Assembly: GCF_014855515.1 (NCBI RefSeq)
Contig: NZ_JACYFK010000001.1
Coordinates: 1,984,001 to 2,048,000 of the forward strand
Length of the DNA: 64,000 bases
From: Euzebyella marina
Lineage (GTDB): Bacteria > Bacteroidota > Bacteroidia > Flavobacteriales > Flavobacteriaceae
Reading direction: 5' to 3'
How positions within the stretch are numbered: position 1 is the first letter of the stretch; every line of letters starts with the position of its first letter. Below, piece by piece: positions 42,871 through 44,906 of the stretch. Position numbers and translations under genes: made by a program. The notes under the pieces were generated by a model. The model made no database searches and had not been told where the DNA came from. It saw nothing but the letters and a program-made list of their open reading frames with translations.

Positions 42871-42905
42871 AAAAAACCTGTAAATCAATAATCTACAGGT
42901 TTTTT
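42871..42905 (-). terminator. ssrA terminator
   Basis: AAAACCTGTA / TACAGGTTTT with an 11-nt loop. On the minus strand a T tract follows, 24 nt after the tmRNA 3' end. The 170 bp before it (42701-42870) show nothing recognisable. Confidence 0.85.
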
Positions 42906-43324: not shown

Positions 43325-43370
43325 ATAAGAAATCAATTTCCGTATTACCAAAGAACCATATAGCCCAAGG

Positions 43371-43520
43371 CTATGTTTTTTTAGCGGGCCCACTTGTACC
43401 AAGGTTCAAGTGGTCGGGCTATCGGCTGTACACACCTGCCCGTACCTAACGGTACGTTCTGGCGGGGTACTTGCCTCTATCCCTGCCCGATTGCCACACT
43501 AGTTGTCCTTAACAAATACG
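43371..43520 (-). ncRNA. Structured RNA upstream of ssrA (possible 6S-type RNA)
   Basis: On the minus strand this region folds as a rod: TCGGGC (43490-43485) pairs with GCCCGA (43419-43414), closing a 77-nt arm. The arm has a large asymmetric internal loop and an apical hairpin CGTACC-GTTA-GGTACG (43456-43441). A second hairpin CCACTTG / CAAGTGG (43413-43390) follows. The closing stem, central bubble and apical stem resemble 6S RNA, and a 6S-Flavo class is known in Bacteroidota, but the identity is inference. The -7 box TATATTTG lies just upstream. Confidence 0.5.
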
Positions 43521-43525
43521 GGCGG

Positions 43526-43533
43526 CAAATATA
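43526..43533 (-). promoter_or_regulatory. -7 element for structured RNA/ssrA transcript
   Basis: On the minus strand TATATTTG matches TAnnTTTG; TTTG (43552-43549) lies 15 bp upstream as a short-spaced -33. Transcription would start near 43520. Confidence 0.55.
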
Positions 43534-43559
43534 CCCCAAAAAGTATTCCAAAAAAAAGT

Positions 43560-43590
43560 TTTGACAGTGTATGCGCTTCCGCTACATTTG
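43560..43590 (+). promoter_or_regulatory. Consensus Bacteroidota promoter of the saccharopine dehydrogenase-like gene
   Basis: TTTG (43560-43563), 19 bp, then TACATTTG (43583-43590): an ideal -33/-7 pair. It is back to back with the ssrA-side promoter. The leader of about 115 nt carries a direct repeat GGGTTTTGACA (43619-43629) and GGGTGTTGACA (43639-43649), 20 bp apart. Confidence 0.65.
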
Positions 43591-43709: not shown

Positions 43710-44906
43710 ATGAAATTCGGAATCATAAGAGAACGAAAAAATCCACCTGATAGGCGCGTAGTCTTGTCTCCGTCAGCCTGTCAAAAAGTCGTTTCCAAAT
43801 TCTCAAAAGCTGAAATAATTGTAGAGCCCTCACCGATTAGGGCCTATTCCGATGAGGTTTACGAAAAGGCGGGTCTACTAGTGGCCTCTAAAATGGATGA
43901 ATGTGATGTACTTTTAGGGGTAAAAGAAGTGCCCATTAAAAACCTGATTCCCAATAAAAAGTATTTCTTCTTTTCGCACACGATTAAAAAGCAGCCGTAC
44001 AATAGAAATTTGTTAAGGGCCATTCTGGATAAAAATATAGAGCTTTATGACCATGAGGTCATTACCAATGAAAACGAACAGCGTCTGGTTGCTTTTGGCA
44101 GGTATGCCGGCATTGTCGGGGCATATAATGGGTTTCGCGCATTCGGACTCAAGTACGGTACCTTTCATTTACCAAAAGCCGAAGAATTACCCGACAAACA
44201 GGCCTTAATTACCGAACTGAGAAAAATAAATCTTCCCAATATAAAAATATTGCTGACCGGAAAGGGTAGGGTAGGAAATGGCTCAAAAGAAATGCTTGAT
44301 GGTATGGGCCTTAAGAAAATAAATGTGGCCGAATACCTAAAAGATGATTTTAACGAACCGGTATACTGCCAAATCGATGCTTCCGAATACAACAAACGCA
44401 AAGATGGAGTGCGCGGCAATAAAGCCGATTTTTTTGCCCACCCGGAAGAATATAAGAGCAACTTTTTTCGCTTTGCCGAGGTAACCGATTTCTATATCGC
44501 CGGGCATTTTTATGGCCAGGGGGCTCCGTATTTATATACTAGGGAAGATGCCAAGCATCCCAAATTTAAAATTAAAGTTGTGGCCGATGTCAGTTGCGAT
44601 ATCGATGGTCCTGTGGCAACTACTATCAAACCGTCGACCATTGCTGACCCTATCTATGGCTATGACCCCATTTCGGAAAAGGAGAACGATTTTAAAAACG
44701 AAAATGCTATTGCCGTTATGGCGGTCGACAACCTACCCTGTGAATTACCTAGGGATGCTAGCGAGGGGTTTGGCGACGCCTTTGTTAAGAACGTGATTCC
44801 CGCCTTTTTTAATGGGGATAAAAACGGAGTTCTCGAACGGGCACGAATGACCCAAAACGGTAAGTTGACCAAGAGGTACCAATATTTGAAAGACTATGTG
44901 TCTTAG
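43710..44906 (+). CDS. Saccharopine dehydrogenase (lysine-forming)-like / alanine dehydrogenase-superfamily enzyme
   Basis: 398 residues, cytosolic. The N-terminal AlaDH/PNT-type domain (KFGIIRERKNPPDRRVVLSP, CDVLLGVKEVP) is followed by a Rossmann domain (NIKILLTGKGRVGNGSKEML, with a GxGxxG-like loop). ADVSCDIDGPVATTIKPSTIADPIYGYDP is typical of NAD-dependent saccharopine or lysine dehydrogenases of the LYS1 type. It would reversibly cleave saccharopine to lysine and 2-oxoglutarate, or act on a related amino acid. Monocistronic, with a strong promoter and a long leader. Confidence 0.8.
   Translation: MKFGIIRERKNPPDRRVVLSPSACQKVVSKFSKAEIIVEPSPIRAYSDEVYEKAGLLVASKMDECDVLLGVKEVPIKNLIPNKKYFFFSHTIKKQPYNRNLLRAILDKNIELYDHEVITNENEQRLVAFGRYAGIVGAYNGFRAFGLKYGTFHLPKAEELPDKQALITELRKINLPNIKILLTGKGRVGNGSKEMLDGMGLKKINVAEYLKDDFNEPVYCQIDASEYNKRKDGVRGNKADFFAHPEEYKSNFFRFAEVTDFYIAGHFYGQGAPYLYTREDAKHPKFKIKVVADVSCDIDGPVATTIKPSTIADPIYGYDPISEKENDFKNENAIAVMAVDNLPCELPRDASEGFGDAFVKNVIPAFFNGDKNGVLERARMTQNGKLTKRYQYLKDYVS

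Follow-up and report, generated by a model that had tools for sequence, protein, structure and literature searches.

Directly upstream of ssrA, the gene for tmRNA, in Euzebyella marina, a member of the Flavobacteriaceae, the minus strand of the 64,000-nucleotide stretch analysed here (referred to as the window throughout) can form a stable RNA structure, and this raises the question of what the structured RNA is and what it may do next to tmRNA. An original prediction, made from the letters of the sequence, held that this is a rod-shaped RNA sharing the tmRNA transcript, either a 6S-type RNA or a member of a new class. 6S RNA, which has a closing stem, a central bubble and an apical stem in one rod, is known for binding RNA polymerase and for pRNA synthesis. 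We thus examined the fold of the element, its match to known RNA families, its position relative to the ssrA promoter, and its distribution among related genomes.

Structure and conservation of the element

Much of what had been read in the sequence is present. On the minus strand, TCGGGC (43490-43485) and GCCCGA (43419-43414) close a 77-nt arm, an apical 6-bp hairpin is followed by a 7-bp hairpin (43413-43407 with 43396-43390), the box TATATTTG lies upstream, and the 150-nt stretch folds better than 200 of 200 shuffles (z -3.73). Stability relative to shuffles is stronger (z -4.68) for the 105-nt element delimited in Table 1, which on its own folds exactly into the structure P1/P2/P3 at -50.3 kcal/mol. 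As judged from alignments and folds, the conserved structure is a three-way junction composed of a 5-bp closing stem (P1), a long arm (P2), and a hairpin (P3). TCGGGC/GCCCGA, which had been taken for the closing stem, was not borne out in that role, as relatives back another register (P1 in Table 1), and the "large asymmetric bubble" that had been described becomes, in the conserved register, an internal loop that is close to symmetric and carries conserved tandem G·A mismatches.

Alignment of the regions upstream of ssrA, as the original prediction had proposed, revealed both conservation and covariation. Aligned with MAFFT, 21 sequences show two-sided changes in 11 of 17 pairs, a number reached by none of 500 shuffles, and 91.3% of cells pair, while sliding of the partner cuts pairing to 24-45%. 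An alignment of 67 sequences, which was made with a model and is hence biased to the structure, gave changes on both sides for 14 of 17 pairs, with P1 cells pairing at 99.4%. Since the E. marina P1 is misplaced in the model-made alignment, support for this stem in E. marina comes from pairwise comparison with two same-genus genomes, G001 and G002, in which the two ends of each element were paired to give P1. Relative to G002, 28 of the 37 pairs are the same, 6 have changed on both sides, 1 has changed on one side, and 2 are broken; the corresponding numbers for G001 are 26, 6, 1, and 4. The motif GCGUU-A-GGGAU(A/U)G ... GA(A/U)AGCCC-G-hairpin-AACGC, identified by reading the sequences, is shared among ssrA leaders of family members.

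When the 5' leader is included in folding, the lowest-energy structure in E. marina contains TCGGGC/GCCCGA (-56.3 kcal/mol vs -53.5 kcal/mol for the family fold) and is thus predicted to be better by 2.8 kcal/mol. With the leader, the family fold is preferred in G002, and in G001 another fold is better by 1.6 kcal/mol, P1 being improbable. On these predicted energies, the TCGGGC/GCCCGA stem may represent an alternative fold specific to E. marina.

Identity of the element

In a 136-nt scan, the sole match of the E. marina element among 4227 Rfam families was Flavo-1 (RF01705), at 16.4 bits and E 0.31; the match is in the right register, yet below the gathering cut-off (42 bits), so that the E. 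marina copy falls short of formal Rfam membership. A 421-nt scan of the region gave no Flavo-1 match at E<=10, nor did locus L142 give one at E<=1. A P2 arm with a conserved core and an internal loop, as in Flavo-1, is found in the E. marina element by register, by alignment, and in its own fold. Among ssrA loci, the first eight scanned included one over the cut-off (L038, 49.2 bits) and one below (L031, 29.2 bits), and six of ten loci (L137, L124, L149, L105, L038, and L065, with L124 and L149 belonging to one genome) pass the Flavo-1 cut-off; no Flavo-1 match at E<=1 was found in ssrA loci L074, L115, L003, and L142. Scanning of four other loci yielded one that passes (L151), two below the cut-off (L184, 37.2 bits; L178, 29.8 bits), and one without a match (L145).

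We also built a covariance model, R1, from the ssrA leaders of 21 relatives, including two of the same genus and excluding the E. marina copy; E. marina, L076, and L117 are absent from the seed because their CGGGY-type P1 was one position off register in the first MAFFT alignments. R1 identifies the E. marina element at 43486-43384 with 46.4 bits and an E-value of 6.7e-10 in the window (R1 E-values are rough), the next best match in the rest of the genome reaching 15.2 bits. When three genomes of the genus were searched with the region, each relative yielded a single strong match in addition to the E. marina copy itself. Since R1 also finds the ssrA copies that pass RF01705 (L137, 55.1 bits; L124, 54.1; L105, 51.1; L038, 49.2; L065, 48.1), this model supports homology of the E. 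marina element to cut-off-passing Flavo-1 copies.

With the Rfam matches of the ssrA loci, the consensus register, and the 16.4-bit match of the element itself, the notion of a new RNA class was dropped in favour of divergent Flavo-1, and this part of the original prediction proved mostly wrong. Of the two Rfam families that it had named, tmRNA was recovered (43324-42928) and 6S-Flavo (RF01685) was not, the element itself giving only the sub-threshold Flavo-1 match. While the P2 arm looks rod-like, a 6S-type RNA is refuted, with practically no probability left to it, by a separate 6S-Flavo gene elsewhere in the E. marina genome (G000:C5:259059-259167, 108.4 bits, over the cut-off), by the absence of any 6S match at the element at E<=10 in both the 421-nt and the 136-nt scan, and by a conserved structure that forms a three-way junction and not a single rod with interruptions. 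Considering identity and shared leader jointly, we regard it as very likely that the upstream element is a divergent copy of Flavo-1 in the 5' leader of the ssrA transcript.

Position relative to promoter and tmRNA

Table 1. Features of the ssrA locus in the E. marina window
Feature	Position	Strand	Basis or remark
-33-like T-rich/TTGG element TTTTTTTTGGAATAC	43543-43557	-	kept except one T in two same-genus genomes; putative ssrA promoter role
-7 box TATATTTG, TAnnTTTG type	43526-43533	-	box read in sequence
Leader 5' extension ahead of element, ~32 nt	43490-43521	-	predicted from -7 box position
Flavo-1-type three-way-junction RNA element, 105 nt	43385-43489	-	R1 match, fold z, sub-threshold RF01705 match
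P1 5' strand CGGGC	43485-43489	-	partner 43389-43385; 4/5 pairs changed on both sides vs G002, likewise vs G001
P2 arm, tandem G·A internal loop and apical hairpin	43416-43483	-	alignments, folds, RF01705 register
P3 hairpin CCACTTG...CAAGTGG	43390-43413	-	alignments; 2 pairs broken in each same-genus relative
P1 3' strand GCCCG	43385-43389	-	pairs with 43489-43485
Small spacer hairpin ATAGCC/GGCTAT	43360-43374	-	weakly terminator-like on -, better on +
boxA-like GGTTCTTTGG, imperfect	43348-43357	-	sequence reading
ssrA, tmRNA, tag GESNYALAA	42928-43324	-	RF00023 match; element outside that match
Terminator-like site 3' of ssrA	42871-42905	-	terminator-like site scan

In the 700 nt that precede the E. 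marina tmRNA, the sole TAnnTTTG box on the tmRNA strand lies upstream of the element, and no such box occurs in the spacer between element and tmRNA, in agreement with the original prediction that the mature tmRNA 5' end (43324) has no -7 box of its own. The -7 box occupies -12 to -5 relative to the start in the available part of PMC9723704, and with this placement transcription is predicted to start near 43521. On the same strand as tmRNA, with a putative promoter upstream and none in between, the E. marina element has the arrangement of a leader. On the plus strand, TACATTTG (43583-43590), which falls inside a block conserved in the genus, is a possible divergent -7 box toward an alanine dehydrogenase/PNT-like gene (43710-44906), and a hairpin with a T run (43358-43376) is terminator-like for transcription arriving from the ssrA side.

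The same layout recurs in relatives. The element is on the tmRNA strand in all 67 loci that carry it, with a gap to tmRNA of 12-188 nt (median 52), so that, together with the lone TAnnTTTG box before the element in E. marina, the predicted presence of a structured RNA on the tmRNA transcript probably holds. A -7 box starts 11-19 nt ahead of the element in 40 of these 67 copies, exactly 14 nt ahead in 27, as compared to 0 of 45 copies elsewhere and a mean of 0.9 (maximum 5) in shuffles; a box anywhere within 150 nt was found for 63/67 ssrA copies vs 6/45 other copies. As the box occupies -12 to -5, a box start 14 nt ahead would place the beginning of P1 at nucleotide +3; in the E. marina leader, P1 begins near +33 rather than +3. 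In the 66 loci without the element, the -7 box nearest to tmRNA has a median position of -46 (boxes within 200 nt), with none within 700 nt in 11 loci, as compared to a median of -179 in 66 loci with the element (E. marina left out), 3 of which had none. Among the 67 loci, TAnnTTTG boxes in the spacer were found in L004 (G001) alone, which has two. These box positions look as though the element lay between the transcription start and tmRNA.

Distribution at ssrA and elsewhere

To describe the distribution of the element, we used 133 ssrA loci, drawn from 132 of 149 genomes of the family plus G002; the 17 family genomes left out followed no fixed rule (some, e.g., G092, have ssrA at contig ends), and by coordinates three of them (G006, G009, and G140) carry the element at ssrA. 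The element is present upstream of tmRNA in 67 of these 133 loci (38/93 and 29/40 in two sets), and the 66 loci without it imply that it is dispensable. Mapped on a fast tree of one short gene (tmRNA, 133 rows), presence and absence require 33 changes, fewer than in any of 200 shuffles (mean 44.7, range 35-51), indicating that presence is partly inherited, yet often gained or lost. R1-positive genomes with an examined ssrA locus have a copy there in 66 of 105 cases, and genomes with a single R1 match in 6 of 14.

The 45 copies away from ssrA that were examined, taken from the best-scoring matches and ten low-copy genomes, are mostly located between ORFs, several of them close 3' of a stop codon, as judged by ORF calling alone. 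Five overlap an ORF, and only one of these ORFs is long (353 aa, at L163, on the opposite strand), an overlap that may hint at recent mobility. In seven of the ten low-copy genomes (L178, L184, L191, L192, L195, L199, and L201), a 317-aa ORF lies 3' of Flavo-1; the two of these seven ORFs that were tested encode methylenetetrahydrofolate reductase (metF), and at one tested metF locus the C-terminal part of methionine synthase (a metH-like ORF) precedes the element. The Flavo-1 family thus also occupies places other than 5' ends, e.g., between metH and metF.

Flavo-1 may be a dispersed, possibly mobile structured repeat that the ssrA leader merely tolerates. This hitch-hiking explanation, which we consider unlikely, is a serious one because the family is both dispersed and patchy: R1 matches occur in 116 of 149 family genomes and in 89 of 197 genomes of a class sample, 26 of the 116 have at least 21 matches, with counts per genome saturating at 27, and one (G032) has at least 69, the 45 other copies examined show no strand preference (23/45 share the strand of the ORF that follows), and presence is patchy on the tmRNA tree. 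A tolerated repeat is, on the other hand, difficult to reconcile with sense orientation in 67/67 loci and fixed promoter spacing in 40/67, with structure-preserving substitutions within the genus, and with the situation in Euzebyella, where R1 finds the ssrA copy in 3/3 genomes, the ssrA copy alone at E<=0.01 in E. marina and in G002, and a metF copy in G001 only. Outside the family, moreover, none of 81 ssrA loci (from 80 genomes, with L206 offering hardly any upstream sequence) carries the element, even though 68 of these loci, in 67 genomes, belong to genomes with R1 matches elsewhere (of 82 such genomes in the class sample, 67 were covered by the ssrA check).

Possible roles of the leader

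The 5' end of tmRNA is matured by RNase P. We infer from the layout of the locus that element and tmRNA are probably on a single precursor: transcription would start near 43521, run through the element and spacer, and enter tmRNA, and RNase P, by analogy with known tmRNA maturation, would cut at 43325/43324 and thereby remove the leader. The role that we favour for the element before this cut is that of a structural cap or insulator at the 5' end of pre-tmRNA. In many relatives, the initial nucleotides of the transcript would be engaged in P1, an arrangement that would shield pre-tmRNA from 5'-end-dependent decay and prevent misfolding between leader and tmRNA as long as the two are joined. 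While the cap or insulator function taken by itself remains tentative, at somewhat less than even odds, we assign a probability of roughly 0.6 to the explanation as a whole, i.e., a Flavo-1-type leader on the ssrA precursor, removal by RNase P, and a cap or insulator role. This explanation is weakened by features of E. marina itself (P1 near +33, an alternative fold better by 2.8 kcal/mol, and a copy below the Rfam cut-off) as well as by the 66/133 loci without the element, its patchy presence, and the occurrence of the family at non-5' sites. A bolder version, in which Flavobacteriaceae would have recruited Flavo-1 time and again, as a transferable capping domain made of RNA, to roughly position +3 of pre-tmRNA, where it would set tmRNA supply via precursor stability or processing, seems rather doubtful to us; if true, it would give the orphan Flavo-1 family a first functional home, tied to ribosome rescue.

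Control of transcription, in which the leader would bind a factor and, jointly with the weak hairpin and the motif resembling boxA, govern read-through into tmRNA, appears quite unlikely. The motif GTTC[AT]TTGA, found in 31 of 133 ssrA leaders as compared to about 0.3 expected by shuffles, argues for such control, as do the terminator-like hairpin, the tail of which overlaps the boxA-like site, and the predicted alternative fold; yet the motif occurs both with and without Flavo-1 and is commoner without (20/66 vs 11/67), terminator-like sites in the region are near chance (3 observed vs 1.2 expected from shuffles), and the small hairpin is not present in the spacers of G001 and G002. A 16S rRNA gene, sought for comparing the boxA-like motif with an rRNA leader, was not found in the E. 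marina assembly. More improbable still is persistence of the leader, once released by RNase P, as an sRNA that acts in trans and is produced in equal number to tmRNA; the stable fold (z -4.68) and the conserved core are consistent with this possibility, but loop and 5' sequences differ strongly, by eye, between genera, and 40/67 loci have little or no 5' extension. An independent sRNA with its own terminator was rejected, as the sole minus-strand terminator-like site between element and tmRNA is weak and such matches are near chance, and a leader peptide was set aside, as reading the leader by eye gave a very short ATG frame only.

Regardless of which role applies, our data suggest that a structured leader can be overlooked when tmRNA is annotated in this family. 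Flavo-1 has been without known function since 2010, and a strand-locked, recurrent site at the probable start of the tmRNA transcript, together with a fold extended by P1 and P3, makes its role amenable to testing in bacteria that can be cultured.

Comparison with known systems

REP elements are dispersed structured repeats made of short palindromes; Flavo-1 resembles such repeats in its many copies in some genomes, often just past a stop codon and on either strand, and differs from them in forming a three-way junction instead of a short palindrome. Our search of open-licence papers found none on such intergenic repeats, nor any that links Flavo-1 to tmRNA or ssrA, and the available parts of PMC2864571, PMC9723704, PMC9029176, and PMC7366714 hold no such link. 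In the part available of PMC9723704, a Flavobacterium psychrophilum transcriptome study, Flavo-1 matches yielded no real functional clues, and the accessible table of Weinberg et al. 2010 (PMC2864571) has the entry "y n n" for Flavo-1. 6S-Flavo (RF01685) is likewise a non-coding RNA of Bacteroidota, with another fold and another place in the genome, and tmRNA (RF00023) is adjoined by the element on the same strand and probably in the same transcript, yet the element lies outside the tmRNA match. The first "n" of the Flavo-1 table entry reportedly stands for not cis-regulatory. The element described here is like Flavo-1 (RF01705) in its Bacteroidota range and in the GGGAU(A/U)G...GA(A/U)AGCCC core and internal loop of P2, which align in register; it is unlike the Rfam consensus, a single hairpin (P2) with unpaired flanks, and its E. 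marina copy scores below the cut-off. What is added here, on the strength of the alignments and predicted folds, is that P1 and P3 extend the P2 of Flavo-1 to a three-way junction and that this junction is placed as a probable leader of ssrA.
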